DNA from: Oscillospiraceae bacterium
GTDB taxonomy: Bacteria > Bacillota > Clostridia > Oscillospirales > Ruminococcaceae
Direction of reading: 5' to 3'
NCBI GenBank assembly: GCA_029006135.1
Contig: JAQXGE010000075.1
Span: forward strand, 1 to 45,062
DNA length: 45,062 bases
Every line of letters begins with the position of its first letter. Position 1 is the first letter of the stretch. Of this stretch, positions 34,261-42,111 are shown in pieces. The notes under the pieces were generated by a model. That model did not search any database, was not told the DNA's origin, and saw only the letters and a list, made by a program, of their open reading frames with translations. A program made the position numbers and the translations under genes.

Positions 34261-34992
34261 ATGCGTATGCGTTTTAAGCCCTATGCGCGGCCCGAGCTGC
34301 TGGCCTGCGACTTTCACATTCACGAACCTCTGACCCATGCCGGGCACTGGCATGAGCAGTTTGCCAACCCTGACCAGCCGCTCCATCTGGAACTGGGCTG
34401 CGGCAAAGGCGGCTTTTTGAGCCAGCTTGCGCCGCGCCATCCCGACATCAACTATCTCGGCATTGACATTACCGACAAGGTGCTGATTCTTGCCAAGCGC
34501 AAGGTGGAGGCCGCCTACCTTGCCGCGGGGCTTCCCACCGACAATGTCCGAATTGCCTCGCTGGACATTGAGCGGATGTCCGGCGTGTTCAGCCCGGCGG
34601 ACACGGTAGAGCGCATCTACATCAATTTCTGCAATCCCTGGAGCAAGAATGCGGGCAGCAACAAGCACCGTCTGACCCATCCGCGCCAGCTGCTGCAGTA
34701 CCGCGCCCTGATGCCGGAGGGCGCCGAAATCTACTTCAAGACCGATGACGATGACCTGTTCCGGGACAGCCTTGAATACTTCCCCGCCGCCGGGTTTGAA
34801 ATCACCTGGCAGACCTTCGACCTGCACAAGGATGAACCGGACTGGAACATCCGCACCGAGCACGAGGGAATGTTCAGCGAGCAGGGAATTCCCATCAAGG
34901 CTCTCATTGCCCGCAAGGGACCTGACTCGACTGTGACATGGGTCGAACCGAAGGCGCGCGTCCGTGCCGAAGAGGAGAACGAAGATGCGTGA
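34261..34992 (+). CDS. trmB: tRNA (guanine-46-N7) methyltransferase
   Basis: Forms m7G46 in tRNA variable loops. The 243-residue protein has the SAM-binding LHLELGCGKGGFL (41-53), YLGIDI, YINFCNPWSKN for the usual NFxDPWPKK, HRLTHP, YFKTDDD and TEHEGMFSEQGIPI. The PWP is PWS here, a minor change. The ATG at 34261 has GAGAGG 13 bases upstream, a long spacing; a second ATG two codons on is further still. It overlaps the next gene by eight bases. Confidence 0.95.
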   Translation: MRMRFKPYARPELLACDFHIHEPLTHAGHWHEQFANPDQPLHLELGCGKGGFLSQLAPRHPDINYLGIDITDKVLILAKRKVEAAYLAAGLPTDNVRIASLDIERMSGVFSPADTVERIYINFCNPWSKNAGSNKHRLTHPRQLLQYRALMPEGAEIYFKTDDDDLFRDSLEYFPAAGFEITWQTFDLHKDEPDWNIRTEHEGMFSEQGIPIKALIARKGPDSTVTWVEPKARVRAEEENEDA

Positions 34993-35956
34993 ATTTTTAG
35001 CCAATCCCACCGTTTACTCGGTGCTGCACCTCATTTTCCTGTTCTTCCTGTACAGTCTCATCGGCTGGGCAGCGGAGGTTGCCTTTGCGGCCGTCACGAC
35101 ACGTCAAATCGTCAACCGCGGGTTTCTTAACGGGCCAATCTGCCCCATCTACGGTGTTGGCATGTCCTTAATGATTTTGATACTTGGGCAGTTCAGCACC
35201 CCCGCACCGGGGCAGGAACATCCGTGGTACGTCAACGTCATTGCGGTATTCTTCGGCGGTATGATTATCACGACGCTGGTCGAACTGGTTGCCGGCTACA
35301 TTCTTTATAAAGCGTTCCATACCCGGTGGTGGGATTACTCAATGTACAAGGGCAACTTGGGCGGGTATATCTGCCCGCAGTTTTCCCTGCTCTGGGGCGT
35401 TGGCAGCGTGGTGCTGATGCTGGTGATTCATCCCCTCATCAACAGGCCCACCGGTCACATTCCCGCCTGGATTCTTCTGATTACTGACGCCATTCTGCTG
35501 GTCCTGTTTGCGGTGGACCTCGCCGCTTCTGTTATGGAGGCAGTCGGCCTGAGCCGTCACCTGAGCCGCATTGATGAGATGCGCGCAGAGCTGCGCCGCA
35601 CGAGCGATGCACTGACCGACGCCATCGGCGGCAGCGCCATGACCATCGACACACTGCTCGATGAGCATCGGCTCCAGCTGATGCTGGGCGCTATGGAAGG
35701 GCGGGATAACGCCGCCGAATGGCGCGCACAGCTCACTGACCTGTCCGCCCGCGCCAAAGACCTGCGCGCTGCCACCAAACAGATGGAACGGCAGCGCTAC
35801 CTTGGCACCGGACGTTTGCTGCGCGCTTTCCCGAACATGGTTCCGGACCGGCACGAAGCGATGGACACCCTGCGCGATGCACTGAACCGCCTTGCGGACG
35901 CCGCCCGCCAGGCCGTTGCGGACAACGTGGAGGACTGGAAGGAAAATCACAAATAA
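34985..35956 (+). CDS. Multi-pass membrane protein, 'putative ABC transporter type IV' family
   Basis: The 323-residue protein starts with HLIFLFFLYSLIGWAAEV and GFLNGPICPIYGVG, which I recognise as the PF06541 family of Firmicutes (annotated as putative ABC transporter permease, function unproven). Five or six helices lie in the first 190 residues; the last 130 are cytoplasmic and helical, with a DALTDAI-rich stretch. No ATPase partner is adjacent. The ATG at 34985 follows GAGGAG and overlaps trmB by eight bases. It ends at a strong terminator. Confidence 0.82.
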   Translation: MREFLANPTVYSVLHLIFLFFLYSLIGWAAEVAFAAVTTRQIVNRGFLNGPICPIYGVGMSLMILILGQFSTPAPGQEHPWYVNVIAVFFGGMIITTLVELVAGYILYKAFHTRWWDYSMYKGNLGGYICPQFSLLWGVGSVVLMLVIHPLINRPTGHIPAWILLITDAILLVLFAVDLAASVMEAVGLSRHLSRIDEMRAELRRTSDALTDAIGGSAMTIDTLLDEHRLQLMLGAMEGRDNAAEWRAQLTDLSARAKDLRAATKQMERQRYLGTGRLLRAFPNMVPDRHEAMDTLRDALNRLADAARQAVADNVEDWKENHK

Positions 35957-35960
35957 CGCA

Positions 35961-36009
35961 AACCCGCCGTCCCGGCTGGCTGACAGCCATGGGACGGCGG
36001 GTTCTTTTT
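35961..36009 (+). terminator. Strong intrinsic terminator of the alaX-trmB operon
   Basis: AACCCGCCGTCCC (35961-35973) pairs perfectly with GGGACGGCGGGTT (35991-36003), followed by CTTTTTAT. It stands between convergent operons; leftward there is no T-run, so the minus-strand permease gene gets little help from it. Confidence 0.85.
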
Positions 36010-36031: not shown

Positions 36032-36868
36032 TCATTTTCCCCGGCGGTCATAGGCAAGGCGCAGCACGAGCCAGGCTGCCGCCACGCAGACGATGATAAT
36101 CAGCCCGAGCATCTGCCAGCTGTGGACGAGGTTCGGCACCGTTGCATCATACATGACATCATCCAGCCCGGCGTTGAGCCAAGACAATCGGCTGTTGAGG
36201 TCAGTCGAAGCGCCGAGTGCCGCCATGCCCCAGCGGCAGACAATGATATAACCGACCGCGGTCAGCGCGCCGCTGATGGGGAACAGAACGCCGCTGAACA
36301 CAACCTGCCCAATCATGAGCACAAGCACGAGCAGCACCGCGGCCTCGCTGTTTTTGAGTGCAGCGGAAACGAGCAGTCCCATGGCGGAGGAAGCCATGAG
36401 CAGCAGCAAAAGCGTGATGTACACTTCCAATTCGGTGGGCAGCAGCAGGTTGTTGCGGGGGATGTGGATGATGGTCACAAACCCCGCCGTCAGCACCGCC
36501 GCCTGAACGGCTTCCACAAGGAAAAGCGTGACTGCCTTGCTGAGCACAACCGCTAAAAGCGAGACGCCGACGCTTGCCTCCCGGAAGATGATTTCCCGTT
36601 CGCGGCAGATTTCACGGTAGGAGTTGAGCAATCCCATGAACGCCGCCATCGCACAGACCACAAAGAGGATTGTTCGGCTGCCAATATTGATGAGGTTGGA
36701 GGTAAAGCAGTCCGGTTCCCCGACCAGCTTAACGACCAGCACCATGAGCGGAGCCTGAAGAACAAGACTGGACAGGATCAGTTTCTGGTTCCAGATCAGC
36801 CGGAAGTTCCGTGCCAGGAGCACCCCGAACTGCCGGAAAAATTTACCGGGTCTTATGAATTGCTGCAT
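36032..36868 (-). CDS. ABC-2 type permease (ABCG-like membrane half)
   Basis: The 278-residue protein has six hydrophobic segments, a cytoplasmic N-terminus ending NFRLIWNQK, and SREICREREIIFREASVG-like residues (NSYREICREREIIFREASVG) that match the connecting helix of ABCG transporters, then LVLVLMIGQVVFSGVLFP. It overlaps the ATPase gene by 16 bases. ATPase and permease together would form an exporter of the ABCG/Rv1747 type; the cargo is unknown. The ATG at 36868 is used. It is the last gene of the five-gene FHA operon. Confidence 0.88.
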   Translation of the reverse strand: MQQFIRPGKFFRQFGVLLARNFRLIWNQKLILSSLVLQAPLMVLVVKLVGEPDCFTSNLINIGSRTILFVVCAMAAFMGLLNSYREICREREIIFREASVGVSLLAVVLSKAVTLFLVEAVQAAVLTAGFVTIIHIPRNNLLLPTELEVYITLLLLLMASSAMGLLVSAALKNSEAAVLLVLVLMIGQVVFSGVLFPISGALTAVGYIIVCRWGMAALGASTDLNSRLSWLNAGLDDVMYDATVPNLVHSWQMLGLIIIVCVAAAWLVLRLAYDRRGK

Positions 36869-38382
36869 CGCGCGTCCGCCTCCTTGGCCGCCTCGGGGTA
36901 CTGCGCCGCCATCCGGTTGAAGCCGGGGGTGGTGTAGTACTTGCGGCGGTAATATTCCACCTGTTCAGAGTCATGCAGTTTTTCAAAGATGTCGCTCGTG
37001 AGGGAGACATCAAAGTAATCGTCCAGTCCTTCCGGCTCACCGTAGTAGCACAGCACGCCGCCGGCGCCAAGAAATGCCACTTTATCGCAGAGGTTGATGT
37101 TGGACATATTGTGGGTCACCATGAGGACCGTGCAGTTCTCATGGCTCAGACGGCGGCAGAGTTCCATCATGCTGCGGTCAAGGTCGGGCGAAAGTCCGCT
37201 GGTCGGCTCGTCAAGAATCAAAAGACGCGGCGAGGCAAGCAGTTCCATCGCGATGGAGACGCGCTTTTTCTGCCCGCCGGACAGCTTGCAGATCATGGTC
37301 TTTTCCCGCCCCGTCAAATCGACCGCGCGGATGGCGTGCGCCACAGCGGCCGCAATCTCCGCCTTTGTGGTGTCGTGGGCAATGCGCAGCCGGGCTGTAT
37401 AGGTCAGGCTCTGTTCCACCGTGAGATAGTCATACATAATATCCTGCTGGGGCACATAGCCCAGCACCGCATCAAAGGCGTTGCGGTTGCCCTTGGTGTC
37501 GATGCCGTCAAAGCAGACGCTGCCCGAAGTGCAGGGCGCCGACCCGGTGACGCAGGTGAGCAGGCTCGACTTGCCGGTTCCCGATCCGCCCACAAGAACC
37601 ACAAAACTGTTGGGTTCCACCTCCAGGCTGACGCCGTCCACAATTTTGAGCGGCTGGCCGGTGGCGCTGTCCTGCACGGTCTTTGTCACATTCACGAGTT
37701 CAATGCTGATGCCGGCTCGGTGCTGATGGTAATGCAGCACCCCGCCCGAAAATGCAAACACCTGCGTCGGCACATTGATGACCGCTCCGTCGGTGAGAAT
37801 CTCGTTCTGGATGCGTCTGCCGTTTAAGTAGGTTCCGTTGGTGGAGCCGAGGTCATGCAGTTCGCAGTGCCCGTCCTTATACACCACCTCGCAGTGATGG
37901 CGGCTGACGCGGTCGCTGACAAGGCGGACGTCACAGTCCTCCCCACGGCCAATGAGTACCCGGCGTTTGCGGCGCAGATCCACTTCCCGCAATACGCCGG
38001 CCGCTGCCGGGTTTTCCTGCCGCACGGCGGCGGAATTTTCCGCATCGCGGATGGTCTCCACGCGGAAGGTAATCTCCTGCGTGGTATCGTCCCGGTCGGT
38101 ATCCAGACCAATCACATCCCCGGGCTGAAGCGTGACCGGCTCATCCTTATGAATGTAGCGGTTGTTGTACCAGGTTCCGCAGGCGGTGGAACCCTCATCC
38201 CGGAGCAGCCACGCGCCGTTCGACCAGTCCAGTGTGAACTGATGGTCGCCGACATTATTGCGGCGCAGCACAAACGTGCAGTCCCGCCCGCGGCCGAAAA
38301 CGCAGGGCGCGGCATCGCTCGAGAGGGTAATCCGCTGACGGTTGCGGCGCTCGGTGATGAGCAGAACGATTTCACTGGCCAA
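36853..38382 (-). CDS. FHA-FHA-ABC transporter ATPase (ABCG type)
   Basis: The 509-residue cytoplasmic protein has two FHA domains and an ABC ATPase. FHA1 (about 1-110) keeps FGRGRDC and GSTACGTWYNN but has VGDHQF for the phosphothreonine-binding SRxH. FHA2 (120-215) is canonical: GRGEDCDVRL, SRHH (S160, R161, H163) and GSTNGTYLNG. The ATPase (230-500) has Walker A GGSGTGKSS (265-273), signature LSGGQKKR (367-374), LLILDEP (387-393) and H424. Mycobacterial Rv1747 has this order fused to its permease and is controlled by a Ser/Thr kinase. The start is TTG at 38382; no ATG lies near and the next is inside the ATPase. It begins six bases after the upstream gene ends. Confidence 0.93.
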   Translation of the reverse strand: MASEIVLLITERRNRQRITLSSDAAPCVFGRGRDCTFVLRRNNVGDHQFTLDWSNGAWLLRDEGSTACGTWYNNRYIHKDEPVTLQPGDVIGLDTDRDDTTQEITFRVETIRDAENSAAVRQENPAAAGVLREVDLRRKRRVLIGRGEDCDVRLVSDRVSRHHCEVVYKDGHCELHDLGSTNGTYLNGRRIQNEILTDGAVINVPTQVFAFSGGVLHYHQHRAGISIELVNVTKTVQDSATGQPLKIVDGVSLEVEPNSFVVLVGGSGTGKSSLLTCVTGSAPCTSGSVCFDGIDTKGNRNAFDAVLGYVPQQDIMYDYLTVEQSLTYTARLRIAHDTTKAEIAAAVAHAIRAVDLTGREKTMICKLSGGQKKRVSIAMELLASPRLLILDEPTSGLSPDLDRSMMELCRRLSHENCTVLMVTHNMSNINLCDKVAFLGAGGVLCYYGEPEGLDDYFDVSLTSDIFEKLHDSEQVEYYRRKYYTTPGFNRMAAQYPEAAKEADARCSNS

Positions 38383-38388
38383 ATCCGT

Positions 38389-38898
38389 TCACGTCCTTTC
38401 GGGGTCGGGCTGGGATGTCCAGCGCCGTTCTTTGCCGCAGTACGGCACAAACTCTGCCGAAGCGCCGCCCAGCGTGAAAACATCTCCCGCTGTGAGCGGG
38501 GATTTTTCCAGCAGACTCTTGCCGTTGAGCGCACACAGCTCATTGGAGGAGCCGGGCAGCGCACACCACTGCGCCTCGGCGGGGTCATAGACGACGATGC
38601 CCTGCCGCGCGGCAAGCGGGCTGTCCGCATCGAGCACGGCGGGGCATCCCGCCGCGTCAACACCCAGGAAGTTCCTGCCCTCCTCAAGGCGCAGGTCGCG
38701 CCCTCGAGCCGGCCCGTCCTTCACAACGAGCCATCCCGCAACAGGGCCGCGCGGCTGTGCGGATTTTACTGCGGCCGCCCCCGCGCTGCCGGGCTGAACA
38801 ATGCCGGCCCGGTGCTGCAGTTCGGTGTTGCAGTAGGGGCAGTCAGGGTATTTGTCCGCGTCATAGAAATGGCCGCTCTCGCATTTTGTCAGTTTCAT
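38389..38898 (-). CDS. Zinc-ribbon FHA-like protein
   Basis: The 169-residue protein starts KCESGHFYDADKYPDCPYC, a zinc-ribbon with C6, H10, C20 and C23, then a flexible segment rich in A and G (30-55), then a divergent FHA domain (about 55-152): GWLVVKDGPARGRD, LEEGRNFLGV, LCALNGKSL and LTAGDVFTLGG. The phosphothreonine-reading residues are not clearly present. It has no signal or membrane segment. The ATG at 38898 has GGAGA upstream and lies 11 bases after the vWA-FHA gene. It is probably an adaptor between the other FHA proteins, which is inferred. Confidence 0.8.
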   Translation of the reverse strand: MKLTKCESGHFYDADKYPDCPYCNTELQHRAGIVQPGSAGAAAVKSAQPRGPVAGWLVVKDGPARGRDLRLEEGRNFLGVDAAGCPAVLDADSPLAARQGIVVYDPAEAQWCALPGSSNELCALNGKSLLEKSPLTAGDVFTLGGASAEFVPYCGKERRWTSQPDPERT

Positions 38899-38909
38899 GG
38901 CTTTTCTCC

Positions 38910-40622
38910 TCACAGTACAAGACGCAGATTGGTGCGTCCGATGCGGATGGTATCATCATTGTTCAGGCGGTGCGCGTCACCAATCGGCTCACCGTTCACC
39001 AGCACTTCGGCTTCGCCAAGCGGGCAGACCGTCACATCGTCACCGTCCACGGCAAAGACCGCGTGCTGGGGCCGAACCCGCGCATCCTCCAGACAGAGAT
39101 CACACTGGGCAGGGTCACTGCCAACAATCAAACTGCTCTCCACATAGCCGGACCAGCGGGTTTCGCCAATGCTCCGGTAACCGCGCAGATAAAACGTCAG
39201 CCAGCCGCCTGGCAGTTCATCCGTCTGTTCCGCTGCGGCATCCTCGAGCAGATGCACCGCCTCGGCCTGTTTTTCGGCATTGCGGTCCCTGCGGCGGCGA
39301 ACAGTTCCCGCCATTGCAAGCGCCGCCACTGCCAGCAGCATCAAAGCCGCAGGCAGGCGGAACCTTGCTGCATAAAAAGCGCGGTCCCTCGGCCAGTCCT
39401 CCACAGTAAAAGTAAAGGTCTGCCCCGCATCGCTCACGTTGGCGGGGGTCATGGCGCTGGGCATCTGCCGCAGGCTGAGGGCATAACTTCCCTCATAGAG
39501 CGGTTCGGTTTGCAGCACGGCGGTGCGGCCGCCGCGCTCAACCCGCGCGCTTTTTACCCGGACGTTCCAGCCCCAGATATCCTGCGCCTTCACGCGGTAG
39601 CACACCGGGTCATCCCCCTGCCCGACCGCCTGATTGAAGGTGACCGTCAGTTCATTCCGGCCCGTCACTTTCACTGACTGGACCGCCGGGGGTGTGAGTT
39701 TGTGCCCCATATAGACGGCGGCGGACGTTGTGACCGCGCTGCCAAGGCTTGGCACGCTGACCGTCACGGTCTCAAGCCGCTCGCCGTAAAAACGGCTTTC
39801 AATGGCGGTTTTGATTTCAACCGCACCCGCCAGTTCCTGCTGTTTCTGCTGCATGGCTTCGGTGAGCGTTCCGGGCGTTACCGGCTGCACTGTTCCGCCG
39901 GTCAGCTGCTCGGTCAGGCCCGCCACGCTGCTGCCCTCATTGAGCAGGGCAAACACCGTCAGCGGAATGTCCAGCTGCGCGGCGCTCTCATCCGACAGAG
40001 CGGTGAGCGCCGCCAGGCTTGACGCAGACGCTCCTGCGCCCGTGCAAATCCAGAGCACCTTGCGCGGGGCCATGTCCTGATAGTTTGTATTCAGTTCCTC
40101 GGCAACCAAAGCGGCGGCCTGAACGGGGTTGGCCTCCCCCCGCTCTGCCGCAAGGGCGTTCACGGCTTTTTTTGCGAGAGTTTTGTCCGCCGTTGCGGAC
40201 AGAACACGCTGCGGCGTACCCGCCATTGTCACAAGAACCAGCTGGTCCCGCTTGCCTTTTGTTTCAAGCAGAGAGAGGAGCGCTGTTCGGCAGTCTTCCA
40301 AGACCTCCTCCCCGGCGCTGTTGTCCACCAAAACAATGTAGCATATCGGTTCGCTGGCGGAAATGATGTTGCCCGTGGGGACCTTTTCCTCCCCAACGCG
40401 GACTTCCACCCCGGCGGAACTGACCAGAGCGGGGTCCAGCGGGCTGCCGGCGGTGTCCTCCACACGGAGGAAAACATCCATCTCGGGAACGTTGAGATAA
40501 ATCTGTTCAATGGAAAAGCTGCCCAGTGAGGCAGCTTTGGGCGCACAGAGCCACCCGGCCAGCAGTGCGGTCAGGATGGCGGTACAGAGCAGGCATGGGA
40601 GCCTGCGGTGTGCGATATTCAT
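38910..40622 (-). CDS. Membrane-anchored vWA-like, Ig-like and FHA protein
   Basis: The 570-residue protein has a signal anchor or signal peptide (10-31), a vWA-like domain (about 40-250) whose MIDAS reads DNSAG (100-104) where DxSxS is usual, a bacterial Ig/SbsA-like domain (312-408, ELTVTFNQAV), a membrane helix (423-440) with RRRR after it, and a cytoplasmic FHA domain (485-570). FHA keeps GSDPAQCDLCLEDARV and LVNGEPI but has RPQH for SRxH. It would sense something outside and contact phosphoproteins or other FHA partners inside. The ATG at 40622 has GGGGG upstream, 27 bases after the coiled-coil gene. Confidence 0.85.
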   Translation of the reverse strand: MNIAHRRLPCLLCTAILTALLAGWLCAPKAASLGSFSIEQIYLNVPEMDVFLRVEDTAGSPLDPALVSSAGVEVRVGEEKVPTGNIISASEPICYIVLVDNSAGEEVLEDCRTALLSLLETKGKRDQLVLVTMAGTPQRVLSATADKTLAKKAVNALAAERGEANPVQAAALVAEELNTNYQDMAPRKVLWICTGAGASASSLAALTALSDESAAQLDIPLTVFALLNEGSSVAGLTEQLTGGTVQPVTPGTLTEAMQQKQQELAGAVEIKTAIESRFYGERLETVTVSVPSLGSAVTTSAAVYMGHKLTPPAVQSVKVTGRNELTVTFNQAVGQGDDPVCYRVKAQDIWGWNVRVKSARVERGGRTAVLQTEPLYEGSYALSLRQMPSAMTPANVSDAGQTFTFTVEDWPRDRAFYAARFRLPAALMLLAVAALAMAGTVRRRRDRNAEKQAEAVHLLEDAAAEQTDELPGGWLTFYLRGYRSIGETRWSGYVESSLIVGSDPAQCDLCLEDARVRPQHAVFAVDGDDVTVCPLGEAEVLVNGEPIGDAHRLNNDDTIRIGRTNLRLVL

Positions 40623-40649
40623 AACAGGCCCCCTTTCCCCGCCCGTGCG

Positions 40650-42041
40650 TCAGTTCTCAATATGGCGGAGCATACGGTCGAGGGCGCGAAGTGCCGCCAC
40701 TGCCTTGCGGCGGCGGGCGGAATCCGTTTTCTTATCATTGGACTCGTTGGACGCCGCAGCGGGCCGTTCCGGCTCCTGCGGCTCCTCCGGGGCCGTCAGA
40801 TCCGGTTCCTCATCCTCCTCCAAAACCGGCATGACCGGTGCGCGCGGCGCAGCGGCGGGCGGGGTCTCATCGGGGCGGGTATTTTCCACCGGGCGGACAA
40901 TCGGGGAGGAGAAGATGGCACCGGGCACCTCGGTCAGTGCCGGGCCGGTCTGATGGTTGGGGTCTCCGGTCGGCCGGGGCGCTTCCTCCTCGGCAGCGGG
41001 CACAGATTCCGGGGTCTCCGGTTCTTCGGCCGGCTTTTCCTCAGGCGTTTCCTCGGGTGCTTTCTCCGGCTCCTGCTCCTCGGCAGCGGCCTGCGCGCGC
41101 ATCTCATCCACCACGCGGGCCAGCGTCTCGGGGTCAAGGTTCAGCCGGACCTTCGGTGTGGGCACGGTGTGCAGTTCGGGCAGTTCGCTCTCAAGTTCGC
41201 GGTCGGACGGATCCTGCGCGGCGGCGCGGGCAATCGGGTCATCGCTTTCCGCCTCGGCTTTGAGGTCGGCAAGGCGCTGGCTCATCAGGCCCAGGCACTG
41301 AATCAAAGCGGCACGCTGGGCTTCCATCTGCTTCACTTCATCGCGGAGATTGTTCAGGCGCAGCTGGTGGGCATTCTGAATCTCGTTGGCCTCAGCCGCA
41401 GCGGCATCAACCAGTTTCTGTGCCTGCTCGCGGGCCTGCTCACGGGCGGCGACGCCGGTCGCGGCGGCGGCATCCTGCGCATTTTTCTCGATGGCGGCGG
41501 CGCGGGACTTTGCCTGTTCCACAATCCGGTCCGCCTCGGCACGGGCTTCGCCCATCGTCTTTTCGCGGTTCTGTTCAAGCGTAGTGCGGGTCTCATCGAG
41601 GGCGCGGCCCTTAATGCGCAGTTCGGCCTCCGCCTGTTCTGTGCGCTCCTTGAGCTGCTCCATCTCCTTCTGAAGGCTTCCGTTTTTGAGCCGCAGCACG
41701 GCGCACTGGTCATTCAGCGAATGATTGCGCTCCTGCAGGGCCGCTACACGGGCGTTAAGGTCCTCTTTTTGGCGGGAGTAGGTTTCACTGCTGCCCGCAA
41801 GTGCCGCATTCTGGCCGGACAGACGCTGGTTCTGTGCCGAAAGCGCCTGGCAGTGCTGCTGCAGTGCGGTGTTCTCCTGCACAGTCTTTTTGAGCTGGCT
41901 CTCCGCCCGGCTCAGCCGCTTTTCATATTCATCACAGAGCAGCTGGAGCGCCGCACGGACATCCTCCGTCTCATAGCCGCCAAAGCGTGCACGGCGCATT
42001 CCGGACTGTTCCATAAACTTTGTCACATCAATTTTAGGCAC
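40650..42041 (-). CDS. DivIVA-like coiled-coil protein, first gene of the FHA operon
   Basis: The 463-residue protein opens with a DivIVA-like motif (RFGGYETEDVRAALQLLCDEYEKRL), then a long coiled coil (about 40-250) rich in E, Q, A and R with many heptads, then an acidic proline/glutamate-rich disordered region (about 300-435), and a basic C-terminal helix (RRRKAVAALRALDRML). DivIVA-type proteins mark curved membrane and recruit partners, and several are substrates of Ser/Thr kinases. The start is GTG at 42041, with GGAGG seven bases upstream; an ATG at 42074 is too close to the promoter -10. It probably places or scaffolds the rest of the operon. Confidence 0.82.
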   Translation of the reverse strand: MPKIDVTKFMEQSGMRRARFGGYETEDVRAALQLLCDEYEKRLSRAESQLKKTVQENTALQQHCQALSAQNQRLSGQNAALAGSSETYSRQKEDLNARVAALQERNHSLNDQCAVLRLKNGSLQKEMEQLKERTEQAEAELRIKGRALDETRTTLEQNREKTMGEARAEADRIVEQAKSRAAAIEKNAQDAAAATGVAAREQAREQAQKLVDAAAAEANEIQNAHQLRLNNLRDEVKQMEAQRAALIQCLGLMSQRLADLKAEAESDDPIARAAAQDPSDRELESELPELHTVPTPKVRLNLDPETLARVVDEMRAQAAAEEQEPEKAPEETPEEKPAEEPETPESVPAAEEEAPRPTGDPNHQTGPALTEVPGAIFSSPIVRPVENTRPDETPPAAAPRAPVMPVLEEDEEPDLTAPEEPQEPERPAAASNESNDKKTDSARRRKAVAALRALDRMLRHIEN

Positions 42042-42082: not shown

Positions 42083-42111
42083 ATTATAACAATTTTTATC
42101 CTCCTGTGCAA
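42083..42111 (-). promoter_or_regulatory. Promoter of the five-gene FHA operon
   Basis: On the minus strand TTGCAC (42106-42111) and TATAAT (42083-42088) are 17 bases apart. Transcription would start near 42076, giving a leader of about 35 bases to the GTG at 42041. Confidence 0.75.

Follow-up and report, generated by a model that had tools for sequence, protein, structure and literature searches.

The nearest studied case to the locus described here is Rv1747 of Mycobacterium tuberculosis, whose kinase is PknF and in which two FHA domains lie N-terminal to an ABC ATPase and a membrane part. An excerpt of PMC9312465 describes how the FHA region of Rv1747 condenses upon phosphorylation by PknF, a change that PstP reverses, and an excerpt of PMC5549992 describes the binding of a phosphothreonine protein by FHA I and gives G, R, S, H and N as the conserved FHA residue set. 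The present locus is a five-gene operon on contig JAQXGE010000075.1 of an Oscillospiraceae genome (GCA_029006135.1, here G000, 84% complete), of which we analysed a stretch of 45,062 nucleotides, hereafter the window. Its genes encode, in order, a DivIVA-like coiled-coil protein, a vWA/Ig protein with an FHA fold, a zinc-ribbon protein with an FHA fold, an FHA1-FHA2-ABC ATPase and a permease. A preliminary description of the operon had likened it to a split Rv1747, and this is supported, as it encodes an FHA-bearing ABC exporter with one gene order within its genus, Gemmiger. It differs from Rv1747 in that the permease is a separate gene rather than a membrane domain of the ATPase polypeptide, FHA1 is degenerate while FHA2 is intact, the linker between them is short and without an invariant threonine in the Gemmiger alignment, no kinase gene is present in the operon, and two extra FHA-fold proteins are encoded. 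The statement that no such system had been described was uncontradicted in the literature, as judged by title and start of abstract among the matches listed, and a literature search for Gemmiger together with FHA found no paper.

We propose that the last four genes (the block) encode a membrane exporter complex that is steered in trans by the kinase PrkC and by PrpC via FHA2 of the ATPase, and that the DivIVA-like gene is separate from it; to this reading we give an even chance. It is supported by the FHA2 binding set being kept in 21/21 Gemmiger ATPases versus 4/40 in related pairs without a kinase, by the homology of the two adaptors (the vWA and zinc-ribbon proteins) to proteins of kinase/PP2C clusters in other genera, and by the FHA matches of G000 being confined to the operon in a genome with one catalytic-looking kinase.

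In the proposed mechanism, PrkC, sensing the state of the envelope, would phosphorylate a threonine, perhaps its own juxtamembrane one or one on a PrkC substrate. FHA2 would bind the phosphothreonine, the ATPase-permease pair would then be recruited or activated, and PrpC would reset the system. FHA1 and the FHA folds of the two adaptors, having lost their binding residues, would provide structural contacts. These folds and the vWA/Ig ectodomain may hold the complex together, so that the two adaptors, the vWA/Ig protein spanning the membrane and the zinc-ribbon protein in the cytoplasm, would join the ATPase and permease in a single assembly. The substrate could be a lipid-like molecule or some precursor of the envelope. 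PASTA kinases are sensors of cell-wall fragments, and to our knowledge few direct membrane outputs are known for those of Gram-positive bacteria. Genomes like G000, in which one intact FHA domain faces one apparently active kinase, offer the chance to test, in a gut commensal, whether a kinase acts directly on an exporter.

The operon and its FHA folds

The features of the operon, with the evidence for each in brackets, are as follows.

40650..42041, minus strand: DivIVA-like long coiled-coil protein, 463 residues, GTG start, first gene, co-directional (open reading frame (ORF), sub-threshold Pfam DivIVA match)
38910..40622, minus strand: vWA/Ig-like ectodomain, one transmembrane helix and cytoplasmic FHA fold, 570 residues (Pfam, AlphaFold model, Foldseek)
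38389..38898, minus strand: adaptor with zinc ribbon and degenerate FHA fold, 169 residues (alignment, AlphaFold model, structure match)
36853..38382, minus strand: FHA1-FHA2-ABC ATPase, 509 residues, TTG start, ATPase motifs present (Pfam, alignment)
38104-38301, minus strand: FHA1 of the ATPase, degenerate (Pfam, residue check)
37774-37959, minus strand: FHA2 of the ATPase, canonical (Pfam, residue check)
36032..36868, minus strand: ABC2_membrane permease, 278 residues, 16-base overlap with the ATPase gene (Pfam)
42083..42110, minus strand: sigma-A-like promoter site upstream of the operon, TGCACA, 16 nt, TATAAT, 10/12 (pattern match only)
35963..36001, minus strand: terminator-like inverted repeat, CCCGCCGTCCC / GGGACGGCGGG, between the operon and a convergent gene whose end is at 35956 (read by eye)

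ORF calls confirmed the five genes as same-strand frames at 42041-36032, with intergenic gaps of 27, 11 and 6 bases followed by the 16-base overlap, in an order shared within Gemmiger. The earlier count of four FHA folds was also right, three being Pfam FHA matches and one being recognised by its AlphaFold model and structure match. The single promoter that had been proposed stands less firmly: a sigma-A-like site does lie upstream, but the call is weak, with four promoter-like sites in the region versus a mean of 1.5 in shuffles. The inverted repeat falls outside the automated hairpin list, whose loop limit is 8. Among the ten window proteins scanned with Pfam there was no kinase match, and our own models, built from few sequences, identified no kinase or PP2C frame of at least 80 residues in the 45 kb window, nor one of at least 100 residues in the 20 kb of locus L036.

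Pfam identified two FHA domains and ABC_tran in the ATPase and ABC2_membrane in the permease; a PDB sequence search with the permease gave no match. At the key positions, FHA2 has G,R,S,R,H,N,G in 21/21 Gemmiger ATPases. FHA1 there reads G,R,G,D,Q,N,N in 21/21, and its binding set is kept in 0/21.

The vWA protein has a Pfam FHA match and a vWA match of 23.8 bits, below the cut-off of 27. Its AlphaFold model, made from an alignment of 17 Gemmiger sequences (predicted local distance difference test score (pLDDT) 78.9, predicted template modelling score 0.48), has a vWA/Ig-like/transmembrane/FHA layout, and with it Foldseek found vWA proteins. The metal-ion-dependent adhesion site is incomplete in the window, which has DNSAG and CTGAG instead of DxSxS and the loop Asp; DxSxS is complete in 2/17 Gemmiger rows and the loop Asp is present in 12/17. 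What stands of the extracellular vWA-like "sensor" of the preliminary description is the domain call. In the FHA fold of this protein Ser or Thr replaces Arg, and the conserved Ser is missing from most rows. The zinc-ribbon protein has no PF00498 match and matched the YscD cytoplasmic model below threshold (E 0.007). Its AlphaFold model (19 Gemmiger sequences, pLDDT 85.4) has an FHA fold with which Foldseek retrieved solved FHA domains, the best of them including those of OdhI and GarA, and most of the binding set is gone in the 19 aligned rows. One of the four FHA folds of the operon, FHA2 of the ATPase, keeps the phosphothreonine-binding residues. From these residue states we infer that FHA2 would be the operon's one working phosphothreonine reader and that the other three folds would act as structural contacts.

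Relatives of the parts in other genera

A scan with the permease alignment yielded 61 loci, 42 of them outside Gemmiger, and the ATPase gene was present in 40 of these 42 (in two frames at two loci). Apart from one weak kinase-like match at L093, the fetched flanks of the 42 loci, short in several, yielded no gene for a kinase, PP2C, vWA or zinc-ribbon-FHA protein. These split Clostridia pairs (Borkfalkia, Gallimonas and others) share with Gemmiger the separate FHA-FHA-ABC and permease genes, and among the relatives compared they score closest to the Gemmiger pair (346-381 bits, 38 ORFs recovered whole). They differ in that their FHA2 is mostly decayed and in that the fetched flanks hold no partner of the vWA-FHA, zinc-ribbon-FHA or DivIVA-like kind, save for one coiled-coil match of 17 bits at L088. 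Over the 40 ATPases of these kinase-less pairs, FHA1 keeps the set in 0/40, and FHA2 has Gly-Arg, Ser, His and Asn in 4/40 and the Arg in 14/40.

The ATPase search found FHA-FHA-ABC genes that share their stretch with kinase and PP2C genes at L051, L052 and L054-L057 (6/6 such loci; L054 and L055 are near copies, and PP2C is matched weakly at L051 and L052), and the zinc-ribbon search added a seventh, L307/L319. These genes have a canonical FHA2 in 7/7 and an FHA1 with Gly-Arg, Ser and His kept in 7/7. The kinase-coupled, kinase-less and Gemmiger operon transporters together offer a natural experiment on the keeping and losing of phospho-reading residues. Five of the six kinase-coupled loci from the ATPase search are second transporters in Gemmiger genomes; L054, L055, L056 and L057 hold a set that differs from that of the operon and is arranged as PP2C, FHA-FHA-ABC, permease, kinase. 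At L307 with L319 (G328:C13), genes for zinc-ribbon-FHA, PP2C, FHA, PP2C, kinase, FHA and a fused FHA-FHA-ABC-permease (763 residues, FHA residues mostly canonical) form one run.

Relatives of the two adaptors were sought in a family and an order sample, both even draws from larger groups. The zinc-ribbon-FHA family was matched in 41/294 family genomes, G000 and G026 included, some matches covering the zinc ribbon only. Loci were fetched for 18/41 of these genomes, 17 of other genera and one a second copy in G026. A PP2C gene lies beside the zinc-ribbon-FHA gene in 18/18, and kinase genes lie within the fetched stretch in 13/18. At L169, one cluster with PP2C and kinase-FHA genes holds homologues of both adaptors, the vWA-transmembrane-FHA protein (E 2e-19, 498 columns) and the zinc-ribbon protein (E 5e-31, 111 columns). 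These kinase-PP2C-FHA clusters (L169, L301-L318) therefore resemble the Gemmiger operon in their zinc-ribbon-FHA homologues, at L169 in the vWA homologue and at L307/L319 also in the fused transporter. They differ from it in their PP2C and kinase genes, neither enzyme being encoded in the Gemmiger operon, and in the FHA residues of the zinc-ribbon proteins beside PP2C genes, where the binding set is mostly present, in contrast to the degenerate Gemmiger fold. The vWA protein was found at full length only in Gemmiger (2/297 family-sample genomes and 1/394 order-sample genomes), other matches being partial (14 and 16 genomes, respectively).

Judged by profile scores and gene neighbours rather than by a dated tree, the Gemmiger operon looks like a composite whose transporter pair resembles the kinase-less ones, whose two adaptors resemble those of kinase clusters and whose coiled-coil gene was found at full length in no other genus. 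We regard it as an unusual combination of parts already known, rather than as a new kind of system.

An alternative is that the complex assembles independently of phosphorylation and the exporter works without kinase control, all the FHA folds being purely structural like those of secretion-system ring proteins. The loss of binding residues in three of the four FHA folds is consistent with this, as are the matches of a YscD-type model to three of the five proteins (one weakly), the fact that our own models identified neither a kinase nor a PP2C frame in the window, and the mostly decayed FHA domains of related pairs without a kinase nearby. However, the full FHA2 set in 21/21 Gemmiger proteins versus 4/40 in the kinase-less pairs argues against it, and we consider it unlikely.

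The DivIVA-like gene and the history of the block

Among 61 genomes searched, 20 besides G000 have a full-length relative of the ATPase (72-76% identity), all of them of the genus Gemmiger, which includes G. formicilis ATCC 27749; one of 19 close relatives bears the name Subdoligranulum. The loci of the 20 relatives were fetched, of which 16 span the five genes and the other four are cut by contig ends. Together with the window, one gene order was found in 17/17 spanning loci, all within the genus.

The preliminary description regarded all five proteins as one machine, in which the DivIVA-like protein would bring the exporter to the septum or pole, with the vWA protein as the sensor of an outside signal. 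The shared order in 17/17 loci and the small intergenic gaps agree with this, as does the DivIVA-like protein itself, a coiled coil preceded by a weak DivIVA N-terminal match (E up to 0.01) in 14/17 Gemmiger members. We nevertheless think this reading improbable. Ten of the 35 genus genomes (G007, G008, G009, G011, G014, G015, G024, G025, G032 and G033) have the DivIVA-like gene without the transporter block. Genome-wide searches of these ten genomes found neither the block ATPase nor the zinc-ribbon-FHA gene in any of them, and no permease apart from divergent copies in G011; the vWA gene, searched for in three of the ten, gave partial matches or none. In G007 and G015 the DivIVA-like gene still adjoins the CmpB gene, with the four block genes missing between them. 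In G024 and G014 it reaches the contig end, so that the contig does not show what follows it.

Where the protein is compared with the DivIVA/GpsB family, its Pfam score and its motif likewise argue against a placing role. The likeness consists of the weak N-terminal match and the coiled coil after it. The differences are that the window protein is below the Pfam cut-off (PF05103, 23.9 bits against 28), that it has a much longer, acidic and proline-rich C-terminal region, and that its FRGY-type motif reads F-G-G-Y, both Gly being invariant in 17 aligned rows; the position thus occupied by Gly is that of the Arg which we take to be the membrane-insertion residue of B. subtilis DivIVA. In addition, G000 holds two further genes of DivIVA type, the first close to a gene that we recognised as sepF-like and the second after one that we recognised as ftsZ. 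A profile comparison of the DivIVA-like protein with the sepF-side protein gave 16.5% probability, over the coiled coil only. The protein on the ftsZ side is a second long DivIVA-type protein (L237:5397-6524, plus strand, G000:C43), encoded directly after ftsZ, with a sub-threshold Pfam match of 22.7 bits.

Since ten of 35 genomes keep the DivIVA-like gene without the ATPase, zinc-ribbon-FHA and permease genes, the view of its product as a needed scaffold is not supported, and we rejected the gene as an obligate part. It appears to be co-directional but separable, with a role of its own, and the functional unit would be the last four genes. Across the genus a DivIVA-like match covers most of the length in 30/35 genomes and a match of any kind is present in 32/35, two being weak and short and that of G014 being split over two contigs; in the searches made, the gene was full length only in Gemmiger. 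Neither it nor the block was found in G002 and G013, the assemblies of which are incomplete (86% and 68%). Parts of the block lie at contig ends in G006 and G030, and G030 has two DivIVA-like genes and 6% contamination.

In the PrkC tree, the block-negative genomes form two clades, separated with starred support by the block-positive G003, G023 and G006. The tree tool counts three changes, since it takes G002 and G030 as positive; with these left as unknown, two losses of the block are the simplest account of the tree. The tree of the DivIVA-like protein needs three changes, at least two of which are forced. Regain of the block by transfer in G003 and G023 was considered and is not favoured, as the ATPase-permease tree nests them in no other lineage; in that tree their joint branch is weak (81/16) and nine of 18 inner branches are open.

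PrkC and its juxtamembrane threonine

All three Pfam FHA matches of G000 sit in the operon, and the genome has two kinase-domain matches, both on contigs other than that of the window. PrkC, with three PASTA stretches and PrpC adjoining, is the one of these two kinase-like genes that looks catalytic. The second (L235:1276-2967, minus strand, G000:C25) encodes a zinc ribbon, a kinase-like domain, a transmembrane helix and two PASTA domains, with HRG for HRD and without DFG, and its product looks like a PASTA pseudokinase. Most genus genomes have partial kinase matches of a similar kind (profile about 60-253). Co-occurrence of the operon with PrkC genes, suggested earlier as a check, is uninformative because a kinase-domain match was found in 61/61 genomes searched. 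No PF00498 match lies outside the block in 13/21 ATPase-bearing genomes, 10 of those 13 having two or fewer kinase-domain matches, and in 7/10 block-negative genomes FHA matches are absent altogether.

Between its kinase domain and the membrane, PrkC has a threonine (position about 325) in 19/22 block-positive and 0/10 block-negative rows, both block-negative clades being without it. In this count G006, with its partial block, was taken as positive, the rows of G002, G013 and G030 were omitted because their block status is unknown, and for G029, which has PrkC copies with and without the threonine, the threonine-bearing copy was counted. Of the uncounted rows, G013 has the threonine and G002 and G030 do not; two outgroup rows are also without it. 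Only this column and one D-to-E column of PrkC show a parallel pattern over the two block-negative clades, defined as absence in all block-negative rows and presence in most block-positive rows and in G003, G023 and G006. The threonine is a possible docking site for FHA2. One may speculate further that PrkC acquired a dedicated exporter, with the threonine docking FHA2 and the sensing of muropeptides or lipid II gating export, and that lineages losing the exporter lost the threonine too; we put this forward tentatively and think it rather doubtful.

Several observations weigh against control of the exporter by PrkC. The kinase-less pairs with decayed FHA domains probably also have a PASTA kinase elsewhere in the genome, so that a kinase in the genome would not alone keep FHA2 intact. 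The FHA1-FHA2 linker offers no invariant threonine, 8/21 ATPase-bearing genomes have further FHA genes, some with kinase clusters of their own, and at the completeness of G000 kinases may be missing from it. The PrkC threonine is absent from three of the 22 block-positive rows (G010, G017 and G028, one clade) and is therefore not a general requirement; its first count, 11/11 versus 0/10, became 19/22 versus 0/10 with the remaining genomes. In a simple association ranking, 12 residue rules in 11 other PrkC columns outscore it, which is what shared descent would give. The two-clade column test was exploratory, rests on two events and was found after looking.

That the block is instead part of a secretion or conflict system resembling the type VII secretion system (T7SS) and exports a toxin or bacteriocin is hinted at by vWA-transmembrane-FHA relatives near FtsK/SpoIIIE-type, EssC-like genes at L170, L174 and L180, but is very improbable, as the ten window proteins scanned gave no above-cut-off match of such a kind (small peptide genes were not sought), a second scan, of five of the proteins and one neighbour, gave the neighbouring gene at 34964-35956 a WXG100 match at E 0.22 only, and PADLOC matched the operon proteins generically as ATPases or weakly (LmuB, E 0.00076, the coiled-coil protein). 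At L170, L174 and L180 the vWA-transmembrane-FHA genes are accompanied by PP2C and kinase-like matches. A further PP2C/vWA/FHA cluster contains a gene for a trypsin-like protease fused to an FHA domain (L172:6457-7863, plus strand).

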